Below are positions 5,950 to 63,999 of a stretch of 64,000 nucleotides of DNA, piece by piece (within the stretch, counting starts at the first letter, position 1; every line of letters begins with the position of its first letter). The stretch is from Burkholderiales bacterium (GTDB lineage: Bacteria > Pseudomonadota > Gammaproteobacteria > Burkholderiales > SG8-41), in the NCBI GenBank assembly GCA_030833315.1, contig JAURHM010000001.1, positions 114,233-178,232 on the forward strand. Direction: 5' to 3'. The notes beneath the pieces are model-generated. The model did no database searches. It had not been told where the DNA came from and saw nothing but the letters and a program-made list of their open reading frames with translations. Made by a program: the position numbers and the translations under genes.

Positions 5950-6840
5950 CTAACGGCGGCGGCCGGTCAGCAACACCCAGCCCTCATCAGTGGCGGCGCG
6001 CGTCATTTTGAATGCCGGCATATAGGCCTCCAGCACCGCATCCGCCTGTTCGACGAGAATCCCGGAGAGGGCAATCTGGCCGCCGGGTCTGGTCAGTCGC
6101 GCCAGCAGCGGTGCCAGTACCGTCAGCGGATTGGCCAGAATATTGGCAACAACAATCTGCGCCGGGCCGGCCACATCCTCCTCTGCCGTAGCCCAGGTGA
6201 TTTCAACGCTGTTCTGTTGCGCGTTCTGCTGCGCCGCCTGTACTGCCTGCGGATCGATGTCGATGCCGCACGCTCGCTGCGCGCCGAGTTTCATCGCGGC
6301 AATCGCCAGAATGCCGGAGCCGCAGCCGTAATCCAGCACGTCGGCATCGGTTGTGACGGTTTCGGTGAGCCAGCGCAGGCACAGTCGCGTGGTCGGATGC
6401 GCACCGGTACCGAAAGCCACCCCCGGATCCAGCGCGATGTTGATGGCTTCGGGATCCGGTGGGGTATGCCAGCTCGGCACGATCCACAGCCGCGGAGTAA
6501 TCGGAATCGGATTGAACTGGCTCTGCGTCAGCCGTACCCAGTCGGCATCTTCAACGCGTTCAATGCGGAAGGCCTCTGTCGCGGCAAGTCCGGCAGCAGC
6601 CAGCGCTTCGGGTACCAGTTCATAAAGATCGGCATCAATCGCAAACAGCGCACCCACTCGATTGCTGCGCCAACAGGTCGCTGGTGCCTCGCCGGGTTCG
6701 GCGAAGATGGGCCGCTCATCGGCGGTTCCGGCAGCGGCATCCTGCACATCCACCGCCAGCGCACCGACCTCCATCAGCGCATCGCTGAGAATTTCGACCG
6801 ATTCCTCGGTCGTTTCGATGATCGCGCAAAGCCAGGGCAT
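5950..6840 (-). CDS. prmA: Ribosomal protein L11 methyltransferase
   Basis: VLDYGCGSGILAIAAMKLGA and IVVANILANPL motifs; upstream accC. Confidence 0.95.
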   Translation of the reverse strand: MPWLCAIIETTEESVEILSDALMEVGALAVDVQDAAAGTADERPIFAEPGEAPATCWRSNRVGALFAIDADLYELVPEALAAAGLAATEAFRIERVEDADWVRLTQSQFNPIPITPRLWIVPSWHTPPDPEAINIALDPGVAFGTGAHPTTRLCLRWLTETVTTDADVLDYGCGSGILAIAAMKLGAQRACGIDIDPQAVQAAQQNAQQNSVEITWATAEEDVAGPAQIVVANILANPLTVLAPLLARLTRPGGQIALSGILVEQADAVLEAYMPAFKMTRAATDEGWVLLTGRRR

Positions 6841-6864
6841 TGTTGCTCCGTTACGGTCCCGTCG

Positions 6865-8220
6865 CTATTCGGCGCGGGTCAACTTGGCGAGGCGTTCTTC
6901 GAGATAATGGATGCTGGTGCCGCCGCGACGGAATGCGGTGTCGCTCATCAGTTCCTGGTGCAGCGGCAGATTGGTCTTGATGCCCTCGATGACGGTTTCC
7001 GACAGGGCGATATGCATCTTCGCAATCGCCTGTTCGCGCGTGTCGCCGTAAGTGATGATCTTGCCGAGCAGCGAATCGTAATTCGGCGGCACGAAATAAC
7101 CGCTGTAGGCGTGCGAATCGACACGCACACCGGGGCCGCCGGGCATGTGCAGCGAGGTGATGCGCCCCGGCGAGGGTGTAAATTTGTGCGGGTCTTCGGC
7201 ATTGATGCGGCATTCAATGGCGTGGCCTTTGATGACCACATCCTTCTGCCGGATCAGCATTTTTTCACCAGCGGCAATGCGGATCTGCATCTGCACCAGA
7301 TCCAGCCCGGTCACGCATTCGGTCACCGGATGCTCCACCTGCAGCCGGGTATTCATTTCGATGAAATAAAACTCGCCGCCCTCATACAAAAACTCGAAAG
7401 TGCCGGCGCCCTGATAACCGATCTTGCGGCAGGCCTCGGCGCAACGTTCGCCAACCTTGGCACGCGCCCGCGCATCGAGCAGCGGTGCCGGCGCTTCTTC
7501 GATGATTTTCTGGTGCCGCCGCTGCATCGAGCAGTCGCGATCACCGAGGTAAATTGCATTCTTGTGTTTGTCGGCAAGCACCTGGATCTCGATATGCCGC
7601 GGCTTCTCCAGGTATTTCTCCATGTAAACCGACGGATTGCCGAAGGCCGCCTGCGCCTCGGATCGCGTAGTGTTGACCGCGTGAATCAGCGCCGCTTCGG
7701 TATGCACGACACGCATGCCGCGTCCGCCGCCGCCGCCTGCCGCCTTGATGATCACCGGATAACGGATTTGCCGCGCAATCTTGACGATTTCCTTGGGGTC
7801 TTCCGGCAGCGCGCCGTCCATGCCGGGCACCACCGGCACACCGGCTTTTTTCATTGCGTTTTTCGCGCTGACCTTGTCGCCCATCAGGCGGATGGTTTCG
7901 GCCTTGGGTCCGATGAAGGTGAAGCCGCTTTGCTCGACCCGCTCGGCGAAGTCGGCGTTTTCCGAAAGAAAACCGTAACCGGGATGGATGGCCTGGGCGT
8001 CGGTGACTTCCGCGGCACTGATGATCGCCGGCACATTGAGGTAGCTGCCGCTGGACGCTGCGGGCCCGATGCACACCGATTCGTCGGCCAGACGCACGTA
8101 TTTCGCCTCGGCATCGGCTTCGGAATGCACGACCACGGTCTTGATGCCCATTTCGCGGCAGGCGCGTTGGATGCGCAGAGCGATTTCACCGCGATTGGCT
8201 ATGAGAATTTTGTCGAACAT
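6865..8220 (-). CDS. accC: Acetyl-CoA carboxylase biotin carboxylase subunit
   Basis: [42 protein letters not shown]. Confidence 0.98.
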
Positions 8221-8307
8221 GGATTCAGTTTATCCCAGGCGCCGCAATCGTCCGGAAGTTCCCCGCGACTGGCGGTTCCGCACGATCTGAGACAGGTATT
8301 TAAAGGT

Positions 8308-8766
8308 TCAGCCGATGGTGAACAGCGGCTGACCGTATTCGACCGGCTGGCCGTTTTCGACCAGAATGGCCTTGATCACGCCATCCGCGTCCGCCTCGAT
8401 TTCATTGAGCAGTTTCATCGCTTCGATGATGCACACGGTTTCGCCGGACTTGATCGGCGAACCGACTTCGACAAAGGGCTTCGAGCCCGGCGCCGACGAG
8501 CGGTAGAAGGTGCCGACCATCGGCGACTTCACGATATGTCCATCGGGTTCCGCTGGCGACGCTTCCGCAGCCGGCGGCGCCGCTTCCGGAGTGTCCGTTG
8601 CGGGCATCTGCATCATCGGTTGCGGCGCATGCGCCATCATCACAGGCGCTGAGGCGCCGCCAAAACGGCTGATGCGCACTTTTTCTTCGCCTTCGGTGAT
8701 TTCCAGCTCGGCGATGTCCGATTGCTGCACCAGATCAATCAGTGTTTTCAGTTTTCTCAAATCCAT
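8308..8766 (-). CDS. accB: Biotin carboxyl carrier protein
   Basis: Biotinylation motif [12 protein letters not shown]; operonic with accC. Confidence 0.97.
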
Positions 8767-8768
8767 GA

Positions 8769-9224
8769 CTAACCCTTATTTTTCGTATGGCGCAAAGCGT
8801 AATCCAGCGCCAGTTCATAGCCGGCCGGGCCGAGGCCGCTGATCACGCCGACCGCGATATCCGAAAAATAGGATTCGCGGCGGAACGATTCCCGCGCAAA
8901 CACATTGGACAAATGAATCTCGACAAAGGGAATGGCCACAGCCGCCAGCGCATCACGCAAGGCAACACTGGTATGGGTGAATGCGGCGGGATTGATCAGG
9001 ATGAAATCCGTGCCCTCTCGCCCGGCCTGCTGCACCCGCTCGACAAGGTCCGCCTCGGAATTGCTTTGGAAAGCAGCCAGACTGATCCCGGCGGCCTGGG
9101 CCCGCGCCTGCAAGCGACTTTCGATTTCAGCGAGGGTCGTTGCCCCGTAGATGCCGGGCTCGCGCGTGCCGAGCAGGTTCAGGTTCGGACCGTTGAGCAA
9201 CAATAATTGTTTGGGACTACTCAT
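8769..9224 (-). CDS. aroQ: Type II 3-dehydroquinate dehydratase
   Basis: [38 protein letters not shown]. Confidence 0.97.
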
Positions 9225-9360
9225 GGCCTTCCCGCTTGTAATGGTTGAACATCTCGCGGCGAGTCACCCCGCCAAGCCCGCTCCGGGCCGCAAAATCAGC
9301 TCAAATTCAAGTTAGCCGATTTTGCCAGAAGTTAGCAAAAATTGTCCATAAAAGTCTGTA

Positions 9361-9404
9361 AAATAAGTATTTTTAGAGGGTAGACCCCTCTAAATTGCTT
9401 ATTT
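9361..9404. promoter_or_regulatory. Composite inverted repeat/hairpin between tlpA 3' end and aroQ 5' end
   Basis: AAATAAG..TTTAGAGGG-TAGAC-CCCTCTAAA..CTTATTT. Confidence 0.5.
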
Positions 9405-9611
9405 TTGCGCCTTCCGGCATCTCGTTGAGAGCCTGATGACTCGAACCCATTTTACACAGGATCAGCAAGCATCCCTGAACATCTTCGATTTCGGGTAAAT
9501 ACCGGAAAATAGGCGAAGAAAAATAAAAAATAAGGCAATTTAGAATAAGAAAGCCCTTCGGTTCGATGCAAATCCCCGTCTTTTAAGCATTCCGGCCGGT
9601 CCGATAACCCG

Positions 9612-10151
9612 TTATTTCAGCAAGGGTTTCAGCGTAGTCCGCATACGCTCTTCAGAAATGCCGCCGACAAGATGGGTAACGATGCGATCCAAGGGATCCA
9701 TCACCAAGGTGTAGGGCAGCACACCAGCCTTGTTGCCCGCCTCGCGCGACAGATCCATCGCATCCATTCCGCCGATGACCAAGGGATAATCGACATTGAG
9801 CTCTTTGGCGAATTCACGAACTTTATCGATCTGATCGATGGAAATGCCGACAAATTGGACATTTTTAGCCGAATATTCACGCTGAAGACGGACAAACATC
9901 GGGATCTCTTCGCGGCAGGGCGCACACCAGGTTGCCCAGTAATTCACCACCAGGATGCGCCCACGGTATGCCGTCAACGATGTCGGAATACCATCCAGCC
10001 CGGTGACGCGGCTTTCCAGAATCTTCCGGCCCAATGCCGGTGAAGAGGCGCCCCCGAAACCGCCGATCCGGAACAGATGGGCAGCATAACCCGCGGCCGC
10101 AGCCAAACCGCCAACGCCGGCCAGCAGCAATGTCCTTCGCAGCTGGATCAC
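9612..10151 (-). CDS. TlpA-like thiol-disulfide oxidoreductase
   Basis: VVNYWATWCAPCREEIP redox motif, N-terminal membrane anchor. Confidence 0.9.
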   Translation of the reverse strand: MIQLRRTLLLAGVGGLAAAAGYAAHLFRIGGFGGASSPALGRKILESRVTGLDGIPTSLTAYRGRILVVNYWATWCAPCREEIPMFVRLQREYSAKNVQFVGISIDQIDKVREFAKELNVDYPLVIGGMDAMDLSREAGNKAGVLPYTLVMDPLDRIVTHLVGGISEERMRTTLKPLLK

Positions 10152-11920
10152 CGCTGACCCAGCGCCTGGTCCAGCACAGCTGAGAATTTGTCAGCGGACT
10201 GGAAACCGATCACCCTCAAGCCCTGGATTTCATTGCCCGCAGAGTCAAAAAAGATGATGCCGGGGGGGCCAAACAGGCGAAACCGTTTGAGCAGGGCCTG
10301 ATGTTCGACACTGCCGGTGGTTACATCGGCCTGCAACTTGACCATGCCCGCCAGTCGCGACTGCACCGCCGGATCGGTAAAGGTGTAACGCTCCATTTCC
10401 TTGCAGCTGACACACCAGTCGGCATAAAAATCGAGCATCACCGTTTTACCCTTGGCCGCCGCGACCGCCGCATCAAGTTCGGCCACGCTGCCGACCCGCT
10501 GAAATGCGACGGCCGGTGCGGCAGGGTTTCCCCCGGGGGAAACCCCGCGCAGTCCGGACAGCGGCTGCAGCACATCGCGGCTGCCTGACAGGGCGCCGAT
10601 GACATAGGCCATCCCCGCCACCAGCGCGATGATGCCGACGCCTTTACTGATGCGCGCAAAACCACGGGCGCCATGCGGCAGGGTATCAATGGCACGAAGA
10701 TAAATCCCGGTCAGGATCAGCAGCGCCGCCCACGCCATCATCTGCATTGCCATCGGAATCACCGGTGACACCAGATAGATGGCGACCGCCAGCAGCAGCA
10801 CGCCAAAAAATCGTTTGACGCTTTCCATCCACGGACCGGCCTTGGGTATTAGTGCACCGGCCGATGCGCCGACGGCGAGCAGAGGCACGCCCATACCCAG
10901 CGCCATCGCAAAAAGGGCTGTCCCGCCAAGCAATCCATCACCGCTTTGCGAGATATACAACAACGCGCCGGCCAGCGGCGCCGCCACACAGGGCCCAATT
11001 ATCAGCGCCGAAAGCATGCCCATGACAAACACGCCGAAAAAGTGTCCGCTGTGCATCTGTCCGCTGGCGCCGGCCAGTTTCGACTGCAAAGCGCTGGGTA
11101 GTTGCAATTCATAGAATCCGAACATCGACAGCGCCAGCACGACAAATACCATCGCGAATGCACCAAGCACCCAGGGATTCTGCAGGGCCGCGGACAGCAG
11201 CGCGCCCGACATGCCGGCGGCAACCCCGGCCATCGCGTAGGTAATCGCCATACCCAGCACATAGGCCGCCGACAGCAGCAGGCCGTGCATGCGCGTCATC
11301 TGGTGCCCGCGCCCGACGATGATTCCGGAGAGAATGGGCACCATGGGCAGGACGCAAGGCGTAAACGACAGCAGCAGACCGAATCCGAAGAAGCTCACGA
11401 TGAGCAGCCAGGCTTCGCCGTGAAACAGCTGGGCGATCAACGCGTCCTCACCCAGCCGGCCGGGCACACCGGCTGCCGGTGCGCCGCCGCCCTTGCCGTC
11501 AGGCAGGCGCAACTCCGCCTTCTGCTCCACCGGCACATAACAGACGCCGACGTCGGCGCAGCCTTGGGATACCGCGGTCAGTACGATCCGCCCGTCATGG
11601 CCGCCGGGCGCGACCGGTACCGTGATGCGCACCTCGTCACGGAACACCGCCACTTCACCGAAGAATTCGTCTTTCTTGATTTTTCCTGCGGGCAATCGGG
11701 GCTCTCCCTGCGAGGCCGAAGCCGGTTCCATCGTGAAACGGAACTTGTCGCGATACAGGTAATAACCCTTGGCGATGACATAACGCACTTCGACGGCGTC
11801 GGGTCCCAACACCCGGGCGCTGAACGCGAAGGCCTTTTCCGGCTCCAGCAGCTCGGGTTCGGCCGCCTGTGCAATCCCACCGAACATCAACAGCGCGACA
11901 AATAACCAGCGAAAAATCAT
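10148..11920 (-). CDS. dsbD: Thiol:disulfide interchange protein DsbD
   Basis: N-terminal DsbD-alpha domain, polytopic core with SFTPCVLPMVPILSG, C-terminal FYADWCVSCKEMERYTF. Confidence 0.95.
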   Translation of the reverse strand: MIFRWLFVALLMFGGIAQAAEPELLEPEKAFAFSARVLGPDAVEVRYVIAKGYYLYRDKFRFTMEPASASQGEPRLPAGKIKKDEFFGEVAVFRDEVRITVPVAPGGHDGRIVLTAVSQGCADVGVCYVPVEQKAELRLPDGKGGGAPAAGVPGRLGEDALIAQLFHGEAWLLIVSFFGFGLLLSFTPCVLPMVPILSGIIVGRGHQMTRMHGLLLSAAYVLGMAITYAMAGVAAGMSGALLSAALQNPWVLGAFAMVFVVLALSMFGFYELQLPSALQSKLAGASGQMHSGHFFGVFVMGMLSALIIGPCVAAPLAGALLYISQSGDGLLGGTALFAMALGMGVPLLAVGASAGALIPKAGPWMESVKRFFGVLLLAVAIYLVSPVIPMAMQMMAWAALLILTGIYLRAIDTLPHGARGFARISKGVGIIALVAGMAYVIGALSGSRDVLQPLSGLRGVSPGGNPAAPAVAFQRVGSVAELDAAVAAAKGKTVMLDFYADWCVSCKEMERYTFTDPAVQSRLAGMVKLQADVTTGSVEHQALLKRFRLFGPPGIIFFDSAGNEIQGLRVIGFQSADKFSAVLDQALGQR

Positions 11921-16574: not shown

Positions 16575-17354
16575 CTAAGCGCGGCCGAAGTGGCGCAACA
16601 ACGCATCCATCAGGCTGTCATCGCCGGGTGCGGTCTCGGTGACATTGCGGCAGCCCAGTTCGCGCGCGACCGCGGCGATCCGCGGGTGCGGCGCAAACAG
16701 CGGGGTCTGCTGCAGCAGCGGCTGGCCGGAAGGGCCGACCATCGTAAACAGGTTACGCATGCCTTCGCTGCTGGTGATGGTCACGGCATGCAAAACATTG
16801 CCGGCCCAGGCTTGCAGCAGCGGCGCCGCGTCGGCAGCGGGTCGGGCACGACGATAACATTCGACATAGTCCACCTGCGCACCACGCGCTGCGAGCGTAT
16901 CGCCCAACAATTCCCGCCCGCCATCGCCGCGGAAAATGACCACGCGCTGTCCGGCCACTTTCTGCAGTTCTGGCAATTCCAGCAGATGTTCGCTGTCGAA
17001 ATGGCGTTCCGGCGCAAGAACGCCGGTAACGCCAAACCGTTCGAGTTCACGGACACTGCCCTTGCCGATGGCGGCGACGCGCATCGCTTCCGGCCATTGA
17101 CGATGCGCCATGACCTGCTTCATCGCCCGTACTACCGCATTGGGGCTGATGAACACGGTGAGCTGATAGTCATCAAGTCTGGTGATGGCATCGAGCAGCG
17201 GTTGCAGATCCGGGGTATCGATAATCTCCAGCACCGGAAACAGGATGGCCCGACCACCGGCCGCATGAATGCGCCCGGCCAGCGGGCCGGACTGTTGCGC
17301 AGGACGGGTGACCACGATGCCGCGGCCGGCCAGCGGCGGAGCGACGGTCATCAC
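16575..17354 (-). CDS. hemD: Uroporphyrinogen-III synthase
   Basis: [17 protein letters not shown] start; [11 protein letters not shown]; overlaps hemC. Confidence 0.93.
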
Positions 17355-18301
17355 GGGTGCGACAGCGCAGCGAGAATGTCGGCAGCGCCCTGATTTTTCA
17401 GGTCGGCAGCCAGCGCGAGACCGACAGCCTCGGCGGTTTCCGGCACACCGGAAGCTTCTCCGCGGACAACCCGGGAACCATTCGGTTCGCCGACCAGCCC
17501 GCGCAGACGCAGCTGCCCGCCGGCGATTTCGGCAAAACCGGCGAGCGGCACATTACAGCTACCGGCCAGCGCGCGGGAAAACGCGCGCTCTGCCAATACG
17601 CACTGTCGGGTCGGCGGATGTACCAGCGGCGCCAGCAGTTCAAAGACGTCTTTGCGGTCTTCACGGCATTCAATGCCAAGCGCGCCCTGGCCTACCGCCG
17701 GAAGGCTTTCTTCCGGCGTCAGCAATGCAGCGATGCGATCGGCCAGACCCAGCCGCTTTAATCCAGCAGCGGCGAGAATGATCGCGCCATACTGACCTTC
17801 ATCGAGTTTACGCAGGCGGGTCTGCACGTTGCCTCGCAGCGGTTCAATCTGCAGCTGCGGAAAATTCGCGCGCAGCTGACATTCGCGGCGCAGGCTGGAC
17901 GTACCGACACGGGTCCCTGCAGGCAGTTCGGCAAGGCCGCGATAATCGTTGGAAACAAAGGCATCACGCGGATCGGCACGCTCCAGCGTCGCCGCCAGCG
18001 CAAAACCCGGCGGCAGATGCATTGGCACGTCCTTCATCGAATGCACCGCCAGATCGGCGCGGCCATCAGCCAGCGCCTCTTCGAGTTCCTTGACGAACAG
18101 GCCCTTGCCGCCGATCTTGGCCAGCGATGTGCCGAGATTACGATCGCCTTCGGTGGTCATGCCGAGAATCGAAACCGTGCGCTGCGGATATAATCGCTGC
18201 AGTTCCGCCTGCACATGCCGCGCCTGCCAAAGCGCCAAGGCGGATTCCCGCGTAGCGATGACGATTGCACCGGCTTCGCGTCCGAGATTGCTCTGTATCA
18301 T
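17351..18301 (-). CDS. hemC: Porphobilinogen deaminase (hydroxymethylbilane synthase)
   Basis: [68 protein letters not shown] dipyrromethane Cys motif. Confidence 0.96.
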
Positions 18302-18311
18302 ATTGATTATA

Positions 18312-18788
18312 TTGAATATTTTAAGCTGCTTCAGGTTCCTCATTGTAACATGCGCACTACTCGGTGCCGCACCGGCCATGGGCCAGTTGCAGCAGGCCGA
18401 CGATCTGGCACAGGCCGCGGCGGAATCACGCGCCAAACGCGTGCCCGTCATGGTCGCCTTCCTGCAGCAGTCCTGCCCTTACTGCGCCATCGCAAGACGT
18501 GATCATCTGCTGCCGCTGGAGGCAGACCCGAGATGGCGGGAGCGTGTGCTGATCCGTGTCGTGGAAACGGATCGCAGCACCGCGCTGCGTGATTTTTCGG
18601 GCAACCCGACGACGCATCAGGCATTCGCACGCAAACTTGATGTGCGCACGGTTCCGACGTTGATCGTGTTTGATGGTTCCGGCAATCCGGTCGGTTTGCC
18701 GCTGACCGGTCTGCTGACCCGGGACTTTTACCAGCTCTATATCGAACAAGCCATTGAGAACGGTCTGACCAAAATGCGCGGCCGCTGA
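18312..18788 (+). CDS. Thioredoxin-fold (SoxW/DsbE-like) secreted protein, probable TTG start
   Basis: CPYC motif [19 protein letters not shown]; signal-peptide-like [24 protein letters not shown] in frame with a TTG codon. Confidence 0.7.
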
Positions 18789-55823: not shown

Positions 55824-56825
55824 TTACTCCGGTTTGATGCCCGCAGCTTTCGCCACATCAGCCCATTTTTTAAGCTCGCTGCGAATCAACTTGGCATAGG
55901 CCGCCGGTGATTCGCTCGGCGAAGGATCGGCCCCGCCGCCTTGGAAACGCTGACGGATTTCAGGATCATTCAGCACCTGCACCACTGCGGTGTGGAGCTG
56001 ATTGACGATGGCAGGAGGCGTTTTTGCCGGAGCAACCAATCCGTACCATTGCACCGCCTCGTAACCGGGCAATCCGGCCTCGGCAATCGTCGGAATATCC
56101 GGCGCTGCCGAGGAACGTTCTGTACTACTGACGCCGTACGCGCGGAGACGGCCTGATTTCACATGGGGCAGCACCGTAAAAATATTGGCTGCAATCATCG
56201 GCACATGGCCTGCGATCACATCGCTGGTGGCAGGCCCCACGCCCTTGTACGGCACATGGATCATTTTCAGTTTGGCCATATAAACAAACAGTTCCATCGC
56301 GAAGTGCTGTATGGATCCGATCCCGCCCGACGCAAACTGTACCTGCCCCGGCTTGGTTTTCAGCAGCGCGATCAATTCTCGCGTGTCCTTTGCCGCTATC
56401 GAAGGGTGTGAAACCAGCAGGTTCGGCAGCGTGACGGTTCGGGAAATCGGCGCGAAATCCCGAGCCAGATCGAAAGGCACTGATCGCATCACTGCCGGAT
56501 TACTGGTGTGGGAAGCGATGATCGCCAGCAGCGTGTAACCGTCCGCGGGCGCCTGGGCCGCCATTTCCGCCCCGAGATTGCCGCTGGCACCGCCACGGTT
56601 GTCGATAATGATGTTCTGCCGGAGGATCTCACTCAGTTTCGGCGTGATCGCCCGGGTGGATGAATCGGTTCCGCCGCCCGCCGGAGACGGCACGATCAAA
56701 CGTATCGGCCGGTCAGGATAAGCAGCAAATGCCTGGGTAGCGAACACTCCCGACATTGACAGCAACAACATCCGGAGAAGGAACAACAGGCCACGCTCGG
56801 AAACAGCTCGATTCATATACGTCAT
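55824..56825 (-). CDS. Bug/TctC-family receptor
   Basis: YPDRPIRLIVPSPAGGGTDSSTR; DNRGGASGNLGAEMAAQ. Confidence 0.95.
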   Translation of the reverse strand: MTYMNRAVSERGLLFLLRMLLLSMSGVFATQAFAAYPDRPIRLIVPSPAGGGTDSSTRAITPKLSEILRQNIIIDNRGGASGNLGAEMAAQAPADGYTLLAIIASHTSNPAVMRSVPFDLARDFAPISRTVTLPNLLVSHPSIAAKDTRELIALLKTKPGQVQFASGGIGSIQHFAMELFVYMAKLKMIHVPYKGVGPATSDVIAGHVPMIAANIFTVLPHVKSGRLRAYGVSSTERSSAAPDIPTIAEAGLPGYEAVQWYGLVAPAKTPPAIVNQLHTAVVQVLNDPEIRQRFQGGGADPSPSESPAAYAKLIRSELKKWADVAKAAGIKPE

Positions 56826-56903
56826 GATCCCCTCCTAGGGCAATACGTTAGTGCATCCACCCTGACCAGCACAATCGGAAGGATTGATGCGAAGCGGGTT
56901 ATT

Positions 56904-57683
56904 TTAGTAAGCGGTCAGGCCGCCATCGATAACGATTGTATGGCCGGTGACGAATCCGCCACGGGGACCTGCCAGATACGCCACTGCTTCTGCAACATCC
57001 TCGGCTGTCGCCAGCCGGTGCAGGGGAATGCGGTCCAGCATGGCCTGCATGTATTTGGCATCGCCCGATTTGGCCGCGCGCGACGGCGATGCAGTATCCA
57101 GCCGTCCGGGCGCAACCGCGTTGACGCGAATGCCATGCGGCGCCCACTCAATGGCCAGCATGCGGGTCATCTGCAGCACCGCGCCCTTGGAAACGCCATA
57201 GGTCGACCGTTCGGCTGCGCCGACAATCCCATGTGTTGAAGAGACATTCACCACGCATCCGGGCTGCCCGGCCTTGATGCGTTGTCGCGCAAAAGCCTGG
57301 GTGATAAAAAAAGTGCCGGTGGTATTGGCTCGCAGTACGGCATCCCACTCTTCCGGCGTCACATCCAGCGCAGCTTTGCGCAGATTGACGGCGGCGTTGT
57401 TGACCAGCACGTCCAGACGTCCGCAAGCCCCGAGTACGGATGCGATCGCGGCCTCAATGCTCGATTGCGAACATAAATCGAGTTCGACGGTGGTGATACG
57501 GCATCCCGTCGCCTGCAACGCTTTTGCCGTTGCATCCAGATTGGACAGGCGGGTGGCGGAAATCGCGAGGTCAAAACCTTCGCGCGCCAATGAGAGGGCG
57601 GCGGCCGCACCGACGCCGTATGAAGCGCCGGTGACCAAGGCAACCGGTTTTGACAAATTCTCAGATCTGCCTGTCGACATCAC
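56904..57683 (-). CDS. Short-chain dehydrogenase/reductase
   Basis: ALVTGASYGVGAAAALSLAREG; NVSSTHGIVGAAERSTYGVSKGAV; GHTIVIDGG. Confidence 0.94.
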   Translation of the reverse strand: MMSTGRSENLSKPVALVTGASYGVGAAAALSLAREGFDLAISATRLSNLDATAKALQATGCRITTVELDLCSQSSIEAAIASVLGACGRLDVLVNNAAVNLRKAALDVTPEEWDAVLRANTTGTFFITQAFARQRIKAGQPGCVVNVSSTHGIVGAAERSTYGVSKGAVLQMTRMLAIEWAPHGIRVNAVAPGRLDTASPSRAAKSGDAKYMQAMLDRIPLHRLATAEDVAEAVAYLAGPRGGFVTGHTIVIDGGLTAY

Positions 57684-58615
57684 CAGCCCCGCGGCTCGTC
57701 TTTCAGGAAAGGCATGGCGGCGATCGCCTCCAATAAATCACCGCGCTCAATCTCACCAGCAGACCGCACCGGAGGCCGCGGCACGCCGCAATCCCGCCCC
57801 ATGCTGGCCAGCACCGTCTTCAGTCCGGCCAGTCCGTCACGCAACCCCGATGCGCCTGCGGCCTTGATCGCATGATTCAGCGCGCCGATGTTTTCCTGCG
57901 CCGAGCGGGCTTCGACGAATTGCCCCTTGCGGCAAAGTTCGAACAGCTCCCTGACCAGCTTGGGTGCAACCGATGACAGCGGTGAAAAGACGCCGGACCC
58001 GCCCAGCGCTCCCGCAGAAACCATGAAGTCGGCGCCGGCAATCAACTGCAGATCCGGCCGCAGTGGCCGGCCATTGCACATGATTTCTTCCATGAATACA
58101 AAATCCAGACCCGCATCGACTACGCCGACCAGATTAGGCAGCTTTTCAATCAGCTCGAGCACGATCTCCGTCGACAGCGTTGTTCCAACCGATTCGACCG
58201 GCGGATTGAAGATGAAAAACGGCAGCTTCACGGCATTGCCGATGCGTACCAGATGTTCCACCACCATCGACGGCTTGGGATGCCAGAAATAGGGCGGATG
58301 CGAAACAATCGCGGCAACACCCAGTGATTGCGCATACAGAGCGCGCTCGATCGCGATGCTGGTGCCGGCGTCGCTGACATGCGCAATCACCGGTACGCGG
58401 CCCTTGACCTGCTCCATCGCAAATTTCAGCAGGCTGCGCAGCTCGGGGTCGGTCAGGCTCATGTCTTCGCCTTCCGGCATCGGCAAGGCCAGCGCTTCAG
58501 CGCCGTTGCGGATATGGAACTCGAGCACCTTGGCATAGGTGTCGTAATCAATGCTGTGATCTTTTTTGAAAGGGGTTACCGGCGTGTGAACCAGTCCCGG
58601 GCTGAATGTCGGCAT
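57680..58615 (-). CDS. DapA/DHDPS-family protein with atypical active site (GVVDAG in place of GxKD)
   Basis: LVHTPVTPFKKDHSIDYDTYAKVLEFHIRNGAEALALPMPEGEDMSLT TIM-barrel N-terminus; aligned Lys is Val. Confidence 0.88.
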   Translation of the reverse strand: MPTFSPGLVHTPVTPFKKDHSIDYDTYAKVLEFHIRNGAEALALPMPEGEDMSLTDPELRSLLKFAMEQVKGRVPVIAHVSDAGTSIAIERALYAQSLGVAAIVSHPPYFWHPKPSMVVEHLVRIGNAVKLPFFIFNPPVESVGTTLSTEIVLELIEKLPNLVGVVDAGLDFVFMEEIMCNGRPLRPDLQLIAGADFMVSAGALGGSGVFSPLSSVAPKLVRELFELCRKGQFVEARSAQENIGALNHAIKAAGASGLRDGLAGLKTVLASMGRDCGVPRPPVRSAGEIERGDLLEAIAAMPFLKDEPRGW

Positions 58616-58644
58616 GAAGTCCTCTGCTCTGAATAGGTTGTGGA

Positions 58645-59592
58645 TTACCAGCCGTGCGGCTCGGTTTGGAGGATGTTGAGTTCCTCCAGCTGCTTGCGCA
58701 GAAACTCGATCCGCTCCTTGGTTGCGGTCGGCAACGGGGAACGGGTCGGCCCCACCGAGCGCCCCATCATGATCATCGCGCCCTTCAGCGATGATGGGTA
58801 CTGCTCCTTGAACAGGCGCCACAGGCGTGAAATCTTGAACTGACACTCCCTTGCGGTTTCCCAGTCGCGCGCAACCAGCGAAGCATAGAACTTATTGCAC
58901 AGATTCGGTGCAATGGCGCCGGAAGACGAAAACGAACCGCAGGCGCCCAGGGGGTAAGCCGCGAGCAGGTGCTCGACGCCCTGGATGATGGAAAACCCAG
59001 GGCGCATTTTCAGCGCAACACGGGAAATCTCGAGAAACTTCTCGCTGTGAAAGCTGGCGTCCTTCATGCCGATATAGTTCGGCAGACGGTCAATCAGCCG
59101 CTTGGTGAGCTCCGCAGTGAATTCAACGCCCTCGCCGTTGCGCCACGGCGAGTTGTAGGTCAGCACCGGCAGGTCGGTATGGGTGCCGATGCGCACGATG
59201 GAATCAAAAATCTCTTCCTGCGACGGGCGGCGGCAGTATGGCGAGATGGTCAGCAGCATGTCGGCGCCGATCTTCTGCGCATGACGCGCGATGTCGAGCG
59301 AATCCTCCTCCGACAGCGTCCCGGCAAAAATCGATACCGGCACGCGACCGGCAACCGTCTTGACGGCGATCTCCGCGCCGAGCTTGCGCTCGGCTATGGT
59401 CAGGTTCAGCGATTCAGCCTTGTGGTGCGGCCATGCGATGGCCGGTGCGCCGTGACGGACGTGGAAATCGACCATTTTTTCAAATCCCGACACATCAAAG
59501 CTGAAATCGTCCTTCAGCGGTGTGACGGGCGCTTGCATGACGCCGTGCAGATTAAAGTTTTTCACATGAACTCCCTGTTGATTCCTGTTCAA
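58645..59592 (-). CDS. DapA/DHDPS-family protein (Schiff-base Lys present)
   Basis: VMQAPVTPLKDDFSFDVSGFEKMVDFHVRHG; LTYNSPWRNG; YIGMKDASF. Confidence 0.9.
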   Translation of the reverse strand: MNRNQQGVHVKNFNLHGVMQAPVTPLKDDFSFDVSGFEKMVDFHVRHGAPAIAWPHHKAESLNLTIAERKLGAEIAVKTVAGRVPVSIFAGTLSEEDSLDIARHAQKIGADMLLTISPYCRRPSQEEIFDSIVRIGTHTDLPVLTYNSPWRNGEGVEFTAELTKRLIDRLPNYIGMKDASFHSEKFLEISRVALKMRPGFSIIQGVEHLLAAYPLGACGSFSSSGAIAPNLCNKFYASLVARDWETARECQFKISRLWRLFKEQYPSSLKGAMIMMGRSVGPTRSPLPTATKERIEFLRKQLEELNILQTEPHGW

Positions 59593-59614
59593 ACGCGTTT
59601 TGGTAATTAATCGG

Positions 59615-60628
59615 TTACTTGGGGACCAGCCCGAGATCCGTCATGACGCCCCTGGTGTCGTCGTACGCCTCAACGAGCCATTTACGGAAGGCTTCACCCG
59701 GGATGAATTCGGAAGACACGCTGTTCTGGTCAAGCTGCTGTTTCCATTCCGGGGTTACCACGACCTTTGCCAGAGCGTCGCTCCAGAAAGTCACTTGCGC
59801 CGGCGTGATTCCGGCTGACCCCAGAATCCCGCGCCAGTTCGGGATGCCGGTGGCATTCATGCCCTCTTCGCGCATCGTCGGCACCTGGGCGAGCTTACCG
59901 GGCTGGCGGCTCGGCGCAGCGATGCCCAGCATGCGCGTCGTGCCGGCCTCGACCTGTGGCAACGCGGCGCTGACGGAAGACACCACGGCCTGAATGTGTC
60001 CGCCGACGACGGCCGTCGAGGATTCGGCGTTGGTCTTGAACACGACCAGTTTCAGGGTTTTCGGATCAATGCCGGCCGCGCGCATCGCCTGGGCAATGGC
60101 CAGATGATTGGGGCCGCCGCGGCTGACCAGACCAAATGAAACCGCGGCAGGCTCAGCTTTCAGCCGCGCCACCAGGTCACGCATGCTTTTGATCGGGGAA
60201 TCATTCCTGACCGTCACCACGGTGTAATCGACCAGCAGCAATGCAACCGCGGAAAGCTCCGAGTATTTCTGCTTCGAAAGCCCGGCGATCTCGTTGGTGA
60301 AAATCGTCGCCGTCGAGTACAGCAGGTAGTGCGGGTCCGCCTTGTGCTGGTTGATATAGACCGGCGCGAGGTTCTGGTTGCCGCCGGCCTTGTTCTGGAC
60401 CAGCACGGGAACGCTAACCAGTTTTGCCGCCTGCAGCGTCTGCTGGATCAGGCGCGCCATCACATCATTGGTGCCGCCAGCTCCGGTCGGCACCACAATC
60501 TCCACGGCCTTTTCAGGACGCCAGCCGGCCTGCGCCTGCGTAGGTGATGAATACAGCGCCGGCAAACACAGGACTGCCGCCAGTCCCCGTTGGACTGCGC
60601 GCATGTAATTGACTGTTCCCTCGCGCAT
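59615..60628 (-). CDS. Bug/TctC-family receptor
   Basis: WRPEKAVEIVVPTGAGGTNDVMARLIQQ; VLVQNKAGGNQNLAPVYINQH. Confidence 0.92.
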   Translation of the reverse strand: MREGTVNYMRAVQRGLAAVLCLPALYSSPTQAQAGWRPEKAVEIVVPTGAGGTNDVMARLIQQTLQAAKLVSVPVLVQNKAGGNQNLAPVYINQHKADPHYLLYSTATIFTNEIAGLSKQKYSELSAVALLLVDYTVVTVRNDSPIKSMRDLVARLKAEPAAVSFGLVSRGGPNHLAIAQAMRAAGIDPKTLKLVVFKTNAESSTAVVGGHIQAVVSSVSAALPQVEAGTTRMLGIAAPSRQPGKLAQVPTMREEGMNATGIPNWRGILGSAGITPAQVTFWSDALAKVVVTPEWKQQLDQNSVSSEFIPGEAFRKWLVEAYDDTRGVMTDLGLVPK

Positions 60629-60653
60629 TGTTTCTCTGCCTCTGAATGACTGC

Positions 60654-61646
60654 TTACTTGCTCCGCCCACCGGGCTGCGCCCGCAGGCTGCCCATGCTGA
60701 CGCCCTTTTTTGCATCGCCTTTTTGTCCCAGCAGTTCGTAATAACGCGCTGCCAGCGCAAGATCCTGTAACGCGGTGCCCACGGATTTGAAGGTGACCAT
60801 TCCGGTATCCGGCACCTGCGCATCGCCCGTCACGATTTTCGCGAGCGTGGTCCATTTGTCGTCCGGCAAGGCTCCGGCCTTGATCGCTACGCAAAGATCG
60901 CCGGCCTCGTGCAGCGCATGCGACGAATCGACGATGACCCGCCCCGCGTCGGCAAAACAGCGGACGTCGACTTCGGCAAACTGTTTCCGCGTGTTACCCA
61001 CCGCGCACAACAAACGGCAACCGGCGAGATACTCGCCGCGCAGTATCGGCTCTGCCCCGCGGGCATTGCTGGCGGCAACCACCACATTGCAGCCCTGTAC
61101 CGCCGCCTCCACTGTGTCGGCAGCACTCACCGGTATGCCCAGTTGCGCGCCCATTTCAGCCGCGAAATGCTCGCGGTTTCCGCGGGTGGGACTGTATACG
61201 CGGGCAGACTGGATCTTGTAAACGGCAGCCAGACTTTCGAATTGTGTTCGCGCCTGGTTGCCCGAACCGATGATGCCCAAACGGACAGGTCCGTTGACCG
61301 TCACCCGGCGCGCGGCAACGCCGCTGGCCGCCCCGGTTCGGGTGTCGGTAATCAACTGTCCGTCCAGCAATGCCAGCAGTTCACCGTCGCTCAGCCGGTA
61401 CAGCGACACCACATAACGGGTGCCCACACCATCGATGGTGTGGTACGCCTTGGTCGCAAAATAACCGGCCTCATGGTCGGCAGCTACGAGAATGCGCATC
61501 GATGCCGTGCCGAGTTCAGTGACATATTTCGGGGACACCACGGTCCGGCCGTCAGCCTCATGGACCAGCGCCCGCTCCAGCAGGTCAATCGCCTCGCGCA
61601 TCGGCAATACGCCGCGCATGGCGTCCAGGTCGAGCATCATCGTCAT
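60654..61646 (-). CDS. Ornithine cyclodeaminase / mu-crystallin family
   Basis: ATKAYHTIDGVGTRYVVSLYRLSDGELLALLDGQLITDTRTGAASGVAAR; LGIIGSGNQARTQFESLAAV. Confidence 0.92.
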   Translation of the reverse strand: MTMMLDLDAMRGVLPMREAIDLLERALVHEADGRTVVSPKYVTELGTASMRILVAADHEAGYFATKAYHTIDGVGTRYVVSLYRLSDGELLALLDGQLITDTRTGAASGVAARRVTVNGPVRLGIIGSGNQARTQFESLAAVYKIQSARVYSPTRGNREHFAAEMGAQLGIPVSAADTVEAAVQGCNVVVAASNARGAEPILRGEYLAGCRLLCAVGNTRKQFAEVDVRCFADAGRVIVDSSHALHEAGDLCVAIKAGALPDDKWTTLAKIVTGDAQVPDTGMVTFKSVGTALQDLALAARYYELLGQKGDAKKGVSMGSLRAQPGGRSK

Positions 61647-61734
61647 TCGGGCAATCTCCTCCTGCAAATGCGCGGGATGTTTTATTTTGCGACGCATTTT
61701 TACTGCGGCATTGAGCTGATTTTATCGGCTCACT

Positions 61735-61751
61735 ATGGCCCGAACAGCCAT
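61735..61751. promoter_or_regulatory. Candidate LysR-type box (ATGGC-N7-GCCAT)
   Basis: Perfect inverted repeat in the divergent region between OCD gene and degenerate lysR. Confidence 0.4.
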
Positions 61752-61806
61752 GGAGGTCTAGAATGACTGTTAATCCTGAAGTTAACAATCCGGGCCTTAA
61801 TCCTTC

Positions 61807-62191
61807 CTGGAAAACCTGCACGGCATCATGGTGTTTCTGAATGTGGTCGACTCCGGCACCTTGAGCGGCGCGGCGCGGCGCGCAAGCTGGGCGTTTCGGC
61901 TGCTGCGGTCAGCGCCACGCTGGCCCGTCTCGAGAAAAAACTTGCGGTCCGGCTGCTCGACCACACCACCCGCCGTCGGGCGATGACCCCCGAAGGCACC
62001 GAGTTCTACGCCCGGTGCAAACAAATCGTCAGCGACCTCGACGACGCGGAGCGGGCCGTCAGCCAGACCGGCAAAGAACCCGGCGATTTGCTGCGTGTCG
62101 GCATGCCGCAAGGTCTCGGACGGATGTGGATCATTCCGCAGCTGCCGCGTTTTCTGCGCCAATATCCGGCGATCTCTCCGGAAGTGGTGTG
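61807..62191 (+). pseudogene. LysR-family regulator: frameshifted in (GGCGC)3 and 3'-truncated
   Basis: LENLHGIMVFLNVVDSGTLSGAARR in one frame, KLGVSAAAVSATLARLEKKLAVRLLDHTTRRRAMTPEGTEFYARCKQIV in another; homology ends near EVVC. Confidence 0.82.
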
Positions 62192-62353
62192 CCGGTCAGC
62201 GTTACAAGCTGCTCTTTTGGCCTTGGGGGTGGTGCGGTCTGGGCGGTGCTGGAGATTACCGTTAGCTTTGCCTTAGCCACGTTGGAACGGATGGCCGAAG
62301 GTCAAACAGTGTGCTGCTTTGCGTAGAAACGCAGTGGCTCCACTGTGATGGAG

Positions 62354-62398
62354 TGGTGGCCGGGGACGGAATTGAACCGCCGACACAAGGATTTTCAA
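62354..62398 (-). repeat. 3' half of tRNA-Phe(GAA) including CCA: candidate attachment-site scar
   Basis: Reverse complement TTGAAAATCCTTGTGTCGGCGGTTCAATTCCGTCCCCGGCCACCA; no 5' half adjacent. Confidence 0.75.
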
Positions 62399-62568
62399 GG
62401 CCGATGGCAGCCCTTTCACGCACTAAAACAATAGGTTACAAAGCCAGAGTGTGCGGTGTGCTACAGAGTGTGCTAAAGCAAAGCAAACCTTTTCACGCAC
62501 GCATCTGAGCTAGTGCAACAACTTAGTGCTGACATTGTCTTTGGCAAAGACATCGGCAGCATGGGCCG

Positions 62569-62775
62569 CTAACGGTGTCGTGCCCGCCACAGCTGCCACG
62601 CACGCTTGAGCAGTGCCAGCCTCCGCGCACTGGCCAGCGTGGGCGCGAACGCTGAGATAGACACACGCTGGGGTTCTGGTTGGTAGAGCCCGCGTTCCGC
62701 CGCTGCGTATGTGGGTGGTGCGGGCAAGCGGAACACGGAGTCTTGTTCGAGAGGAGAGAATTCACGGAGACGCAT
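62569..62775 (-). CDS. Hypothetical short ORF (68 aa)
   Basis: ORF only; MRLREFSPLEQDSVFRLPAPP...; no recognised family. Confidence 0.25.
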   Translation of the reverse strand: MRLREFSPLEQDSVFRLPAPPTYAAAERGLYQPEPQRVSISAFAPTLASARRLALLKRAWQLWRARHR

Positions 62776-62887
62776 GCTTTTACTTATGTCGACCGATGAA
62801 CTTTAGTATGTGTTTCCAATCTTCAAATGTCTGCCGTAACTTTACAATTCATCACCCCCCGCGATACGCTCACCACCAATATCCACA

Positions 62888-63178
62888 CTACTTCGCATAG
62901 CCGCGCACTATCTCAATTTGCCGATCTAGCATCTGAATACAACCCTGATAATTTCCTGAGTCTCTAAGTGATTCGCCTTCATTTAATGAGCGCTGTATTC
63001 CTAGGCTCAGTTGTGCAAGTGGTGGCATAGCTGGAATTTTACGAAGAATAACAATATAGATATTTCGTAATTCATTTATCCGATCTTGACACATTGCGAT
63101 AAGTGGCTGGGCGTGCAACTGAGTTGTACCGAAACTAGTGCATACAAATAATGCAGAAGCAAGGAGGCGTAATTTCAT
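62888..63178 (-). CDS. Small secreted hypothetical protein
   Basis: Signal peptide MKLRLLASALFVCTSFGTTQLHAQ; AT-rich context; conserved-looking Cys pair. Confidence 0.55.
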   Translation of the reverse strand: MKLRLLASALFVCTSFGTTQLHAQPLIAMCQDRINELRNIYIVILRKIPAMPPLAQLSLGIQRSLNEGESLRDSGNYQGCIQMLDRQIEIVRGYAK

Positions 63179-63213
63179 CTCTAGGCGATACCTAAGGCAA
63201 AGTCTGAATCGCC

Positions 63214-63999
63214 TCACCAAGGAGGTATCCAGTTACCATGTAGAAACATCTCTTTGCTGGGATTCGTTTTATAGATATCATTTTCCATATCATTAGCAAG
63301 TCTAGCGTCTTCAGGACAATTTCCCTCCATTTTGCTAGGGTATTCCGCAAAATAGCGCTCACCTTTATTTTTGTACTTTTGAAAAAGATAACAGTCGTTC
63401 CCTGCACCAGGGACTTGCACTTTTGTAACAATTTCTTTTCCATCCGCACTTACTGTGTAGAAAATTTTTCTATCGTACCTTTTTCTTTCTTGCCAGAGGC
63501 CTCGGGGGTCTTCAAAACCCCTTGGTTTCGGGCTGTATATGAAGAGACTCGCGCTATCTGTTTGAAAGTACCAGAAGATCGTCTGTACCGTTCTATCTGA
63601 GGAGCAGGCGTTATTTTTCTCTCCGACTTCATCCACAACACATTTTCCCAAAAGAAAATTTTTTGTCTCGGGTGCTGGGCTTACGTTTATTGCTGCCACA
63701 GAAGGAGCTGTTGGTGTGGCAGTGGTGGCCACCGGCGGAGCGCTCACTGGATTCGCTTCTCTAGATGATCTTTTACCGATGTAATCAACCAGCCCCCAGC
63801 CCACCAAAAACACCACGCCCGCAGCAGCAGCCCAGCCCATGAGATTGTTTTTGTCGCTGTTGGCTTGTTCAGATGCCGTTGCCCCCTGTTGTGACAATTG
63901 TGAGCTATCTGGCTCCACAACCTTGCCCGTACCTTGCTCAAGCGTGGGGGATGCGCTTGTGACGGCCGCTGGTTCAGCGTTGGCTTCGGAAACTTGAGC
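63214..63999 (-). CDS. Hypothetical single-pass membrane protein, 5' end beyond window
   Basis: Frame open to window edge (AQVSEANAEPAAVTSASPTLEQGTGKVVEPDSS...); TM segment LMGWAAAAGVVFLVGWGLVDYIG; Pro/Ala/Thr linker. Confidence 0.6.
   Translation of the reverse strand, partial: AQVSEANAEPAAVTSASPTLEQGTGKVVEPDSSQLSQQGATASEQANSDKNNLMGWAAAAGVVFLVGWGLVDYIGKRSSREANPVSAPPVATTATPTAPSVAAINVSPAPETKNFLLGKCVVDEVGEKNNACSSDRTVQTIFWYFQTDSASLFIYSPKPRGFEDPRGLWQERKRYDRKIFYTVSADGKEIVTKVQVPGAGNDCYLFQKYKNKGERYFAEYPSKMEGNCPEDARLANDMENDIYKTNPSKEMFLHGNWIPPW

Follow-up and report, generated by a model that had tools for sequence, protein, structure and literature searches.

What is half of a tRNA gene doing near the right edge of a stretch of ordinary bacterial chromosome, and where is the rest of the DNA that put it there? 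The window, i.e., the whole stretch that we analyzed, comprises 64,000 nucleotides of a Burkholderiales bacterium (genome G000; C92:114233-178232). The sequence named in the initial annotation is present at exactly 62354-62398 and reads TTGAAAATCCTTGTGTCGGCGGTTCAATTCCGTCCCCGGCCACCA on the minus strand. It had been described as the part of tRNA-Phe that runs from the anticodon loop to the CCA end, and indeed it matches the 3' half of this genome's tRNA-Phe gene at 45 of 45 positions. ARAGORN found no tRNA over the window, so that the 5' half is missing at this place, as the annotation had also stated. A search of Rfam gave a single match, at chance level. Allowing up to three mismatches, the 45-mer occurs once in the window, for zero occurrences expected from shuffled sequences, and a 32-base part of it, searched with the same tolerance across the 3.1-Mb genome, was found at two sites only: this one and the intact tRNA-Phe gene. 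The second copy of the 45-mer (C105:2045-2089) is the 3' half of that intact gene. The GC content drops from about 0.61 to 0.47 to the right of the fragment. We are confident that the 45-bp fragment (62354-62398, minus strand) is the displaced 3' half of tRNA-Phe and constitutes the attL of a small integrative element, a genomic island inserted in the tRNA-Phe gene that adjoins groEL.

The initial annotation had predicted that an intact tRNA-Phe gene sharing the 45-mer, as well as an integrase, would be found further to the right. Both exist, off the contig of the window. The tRNA-Phe gene (C105:2045-2120, minus strand) is the only one detected in the genome and adjoins groEL and groES. Directly beside it, on the element side and thus on the side predicted, is a gene for a tyrosine recombinase of 400 amino acids (C105:717-1919, minus strand), with a match to the family phrog_1 (E-value 2.6e-36) and to the SAM-like and catalytic domains of Pfam. 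Its residues R230, K261, and R345 are invariant among five relatives and we take them, from what is known of tyrosine recombinases, to be catalytic; the presumed catalytic tyrosine is Y377. The order of features along C105 is the end of an insertion sequence (IS; bases 1-140), an ORF of 198 codons, the integrase, around 125 bp of non-coding DNA, the tRNA-Phe gene, and groEL/groES. The last 16 codons of the 198-aa ORF derive from the IS, which means that this gene is broken.

The arrangement of the locus in related genomes links the two contigs. The window's chromosomal flank ends in a frameshifted pseudogene of a LysR-type regulator (61808-62186, plus strand) that is cut off at 62186. In the sister genome G012, the homologue of window positions 56338-62186 (89-91% identity), the intact LysR gene (300 aa), about 5.3 kb of DNA, the tRNA-Phe gene, and groEL follow each other on a single contig. 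In the genus-mates whose contigs show the site, the tRNA-Phe gene adjoins groEL, and on its other side is the backbone that fills the window. In one of them (G005), this backbone comes to within about 230 bp of the tRNA-Phe gene, leaving the site nearly unoccupied. Hence, the left flank of the fragment is the expected chromosomal neighbor of the tRNA-Phe gene and, as a consequence, inserted DNA separates 62398 from C105:2045. When the contigs are ordered according to the synteny with G012 and the co-occurrence of homologous parts in another genome (G254, see below), the orientation is the one that had been proposed, i.e., the fragment is at the left, the element extends to its right, and the intact tRNA-Phe gene is at the far end.

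Two native stretches of the element can be seen: 62399-64096, with 1698 bp (the final 96 of them past the window's edge), and C105:141-2044, with 1904 bp. Together they amount to around 3.6 kb, not counting the IS. They carry the integrase, the gene broken by the IS, a zinc-ribbon membrane protein, a protein of 110 amino acids, and non-coding arms. The left end (62399-62560) is non-coding and has three GTGTGC motifs within 25 bases (at 62449, 62456, and 62468); in the left end in G254:C70, TGTGC occupies the three corresponding positions. It is followed by a block (62593-62777, minus strand) that is 79% conserved in G254:C70 and may hold an ORF of 68 codons (62569-62775, minus strand), whose reading frame is not open in the G254:C70 homologue. 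The 110-aa ORF (62888-63220, minus strand) has a hydrophobic N-terminus and matched no family. The zinc-ribbon protein has 285 residues, including what looks like a membrane stretch; its gene is on the minus strand and covers the window from position 63214 to the last base, 64000, and the DNA beyond up to 64071 (L005:3214-4071). Its first 96 residues have a homologue in G254:C70 with 51% identity. On the integrase side, the spacer between the CCA end and the start of the integrase gene is conserved in G000 and at two related loci (L061 and L060), including the motifs AGTGTGC and GCACACT. The two 150-bp ends of the element have six GTGTGC for 0.13 expected, a contrast that overstates the significance because the motif was picked after looking. 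From general knowledge of tyrosine recombinases, these repeats are likely to be arm-type integrase sites. No protein of the element matched the defence library, and there were no phage structural, packaging, or lysis genes among the visible 3.6 kb.

No contig spans the element, since C92 stops inside an IS at 178446, which is 214 bases after the window's last base, and C105 starts inside the end of such an IS. This is why the link between the two ends was taken from relatives. Three further contigs also have the left end of the IS that terminates C92 close to their ends. C43, C40, and C98 were considered as bridging contigs and rejected, as they carry ordinary chromosomal genes, e.g., lipA/lipB and bioB. 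The two visible parts presumably belong to one element that is now interrupted by an IS. The IS ends on C92 and C105 have no matching target duplication (3-4 bp), and a single IS may thus not be what joins the two contigs. There is likely to be a small deletion or some extra sequence between them, as suggested by the homologue of the 198-aa protein in G066, which extends past the point of interruption. One multi-copy IS is found at many contig ends in G000 (C105, C98, C83, C81, C40, C43, C96, C57, C32, C92, C87, and C82) and interrupts genes, e.g., a comF-like gene on C40, as well as the related integrase in G254.

The relatives of the integrase that the scans revealed are beside tRNA genes. 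The one in G254 (OMIN01000141.1 and C70; Betaproteobacteria isolate AM_0616), a genome of the same family, is 81-82% identical to that of G000 (82% for L060, beside tRNA-Met) and its upstream region matches too. G254 carries the same IS as G000 (97%), inserted there within the integrase gene. On a second contig of G254 are homologues of the left end (62593-62777), where the alignment runs on to the boundary beside the core, and of the zinc-ribbon gene. The two contigs of G254 are probably joined. The genomes differ in that the integrase-side core of G254 is the 3' half of tRNA-Met and lacks an adjacent 5' half, and a search of the far end of its element revealed no tRNA fragment. The G254 element (L060/L100 at the end of C141; L099 on C70, about 2.1 kb) gives the impression of having moved to a site outside tRNA genes. 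Another close relative is on CAMBGJ010000123.1 (L061), from a metagenome-assembled genome labelled Bordetella parapertussis, which has the same tRNA-Phe gene, the groEL neighbor, and the arm motifs. Its integrase is 72% identical over the visible part, the only one compared as the contig stops inside the gene.

More distant relatives of the integrase are beside tRNA-Met (L072 and L073, 36-37% identity) and tRNA-Lys (L063 and L065, 48-49%). One genome (G273) has a complete element of 6.6 kb between perfect 46-bp repeats of the tRNA-Lys 3' half, and another (G092) a possible element of 8.9 kb with a diverged repeat. By inspection, these bounded relatives lack phage structural genes. The sole match of the integrase among plasmids was distant (34%). 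There was no match in 50,697 phage records, and a pattern scan of viral contigs found no relative. In two other genomes, distant relatives of the integrase (L082 in G410:C1 and L084 in G246:C1) follow 5' halves of tRNA-Lys and tRNA-Phe, respectively, that stop at the anticodon, and the intact tRNA genes come 8.3 and 13.3 kb later. In these islands the displaced fragment is the 5' one, a less common situation that accounts for 159 of the 3919 islands in Islander (PMC4383910).

Several lines of evidence support the reading of the 45-mer as attL: it is a perfect copy present at only two genomic sites, and a tyrosine recombinase stands directly beside the intact gene; its flanks are 5.3 kb apart in G012 and the site is nearly unoccupied in G005; G254 associates a homologous integrase with the window-side end and the zinc-ribbon gene; relatives of the integrase adjoin tRNA-Phe, tRNA-Lys, and tRNA-Met genes, including the 6.6-kb case; the integrase-side arm is conserved in three genomes, the repeats of the left end match, and the GC content drops. 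In the mechanism that we propose, the tyrosine recombinase would join an attP that itself contains the tRNA 3' half to the chromosomal tRNA-Phe gene, and the crossover would fall within the shared segment, at its anticodon-loop end. The copy brought by the element would restore the tRNA gene (C105:2045-2120), and the original 3' half would end up on the opposite side of the element, as the fragment seen in the window. The identity and the orientation of the two cores, the integrase at the restored tRNA gene, the end repeats, and the adjacency of the outer flanks in G012 are direct observations; the recombinase may be active and the element able to excise.

This corresponds to the islands described in Islander (PMC4383910), in which the tDNA is split upon integration and made whole again by the attP of the island, and the piece that was displaced indicates where the island ends on the far side. 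In that collection, 3760 of the 3919 islands have 3' fragments, and 2083 use the anticodon subsite. The element shares with the islands of this subsite the restored tRNA gene, the fragment in the same orientation on its 3' side and starting at the anticodon loop, and the adjacent tyrosine integrase. The intact gene and the terminal fragment are in the same genome, identical over the 45 bp, and both are on the minus strand when the contigs are placed by the synteny with G012. The integrase is between the two, a placement that is likewise drawn from synteny. Islander asks for both ends on one replicon, 2-200 kb apart; here the visible parts make 3.6 kb plus the IS, the two ends are on unjoined contigs, and the IS interrupts the element. 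The element is an ordinary genomic island of the anticodon-site type, whose displaced tDNA fragment is the 3' one; its class is common and well understood.

Three other explanations have to be weighed. Just outside the element, a stretch of 167 bp (62187-62353) separates attL from the broken LysR gene. Across 74 genomes of the family, its only match was one of 39 bp, which is not convincing. The stretch is absent from the sister genomes and begins where the LysR gene breaks, and we rank an older insertion followed by a deletion at the same tRNA gene above other causes for it. One could go further and place the fragment at a junction inside a tandem array, with the 167 bp as what is left of an older element of the same tRNA gene whose outer scar was deleted together with the end of LysR. 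Relatives do have tandem or repeated tRNA-Phe cores: three in G029, two in G018, and two further scars of 20-21 bp in G007. Yet the window has no second core or integrase remnant, and the 167 bp match no element found in this analysis, which makes us regard such an array as unlikely.

Less plausible still is that we see the two ends of a full-size prophage, with its interior hidden in the assembly gap. The interior is unseen and the integrase does match phage integrase families such as phrog_1, but neither the phage records nor the scanned viral contigs revealed a relative, no visible gene encodes a phage structural protein, and the relatives that can be bounded are small (6.6 kb and perhaps 8.9 kb) and devoid of such genes. 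Finally, as the fragment and the integrase are on different contigs, the former might be the bare scar of a long-lost element, unrelated to the integrase of C105. We give this very little credence, because the flanks neighbor each other in G012 and the sequence to the right of the fragment is homologous to the end of the G254 element, which has a closely related integrase.

The attL of a genomic island thus remains our preferred reading, and the site that it occupies is used by other elements as well. In G018 (L054, G018:C40:7900-27854), a segment of 1.94 kb (16605-18592) lies between two tRNA-Phe cores, one of which is in the intact tRNA gene. It has ORFs of 247 (TIGR04255 family), 168, and 127 amino acids and no integrase, and would therefore need an integrase in trans to move. 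In G029 (L057, G029:C2:1-20000), three tandem tRNA-Phe cores are found at 5983-10444: the first and second enclose an integrase remnant and a Fic protein, the second and third an AbiEi/AbiEii pair, and a type I restriction-like gene is found beyond. In G007 (L050, G007:C10), the two additional copies of the tRNA-Phe 3' end, of 20-21 bp (147-167 and 268-287), lie downstream of the intact tRNA gene, in a repeated unit whose copies are nearly identical. It is conceivable, though unlikely, that the element belongs to a small and apparently undescribed family of integrative elements whose hallmarks are an integrase with GTGTGC arm sites and a membrane protein with a zinc ribbon. Such a family would move from one kind of tRNA gene to another within this bacterial order, and the tRNA-Phe-groEL site would also host mini-islands that have no integrase and would have to be mobilized in trans.

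These results make one boundary of a mobile element exact and explain the adjacent contig break. The mechanism is the textbook one, and the modest added interest comes from the same tRNA-Phe site holding different cargo in relatives. The tRNA-Phe-groEL locus varies within the genus and beyond, and is therefore a good place to seek exchanged genes; in one relative it holds Fic, AbiE, and restriction genes.
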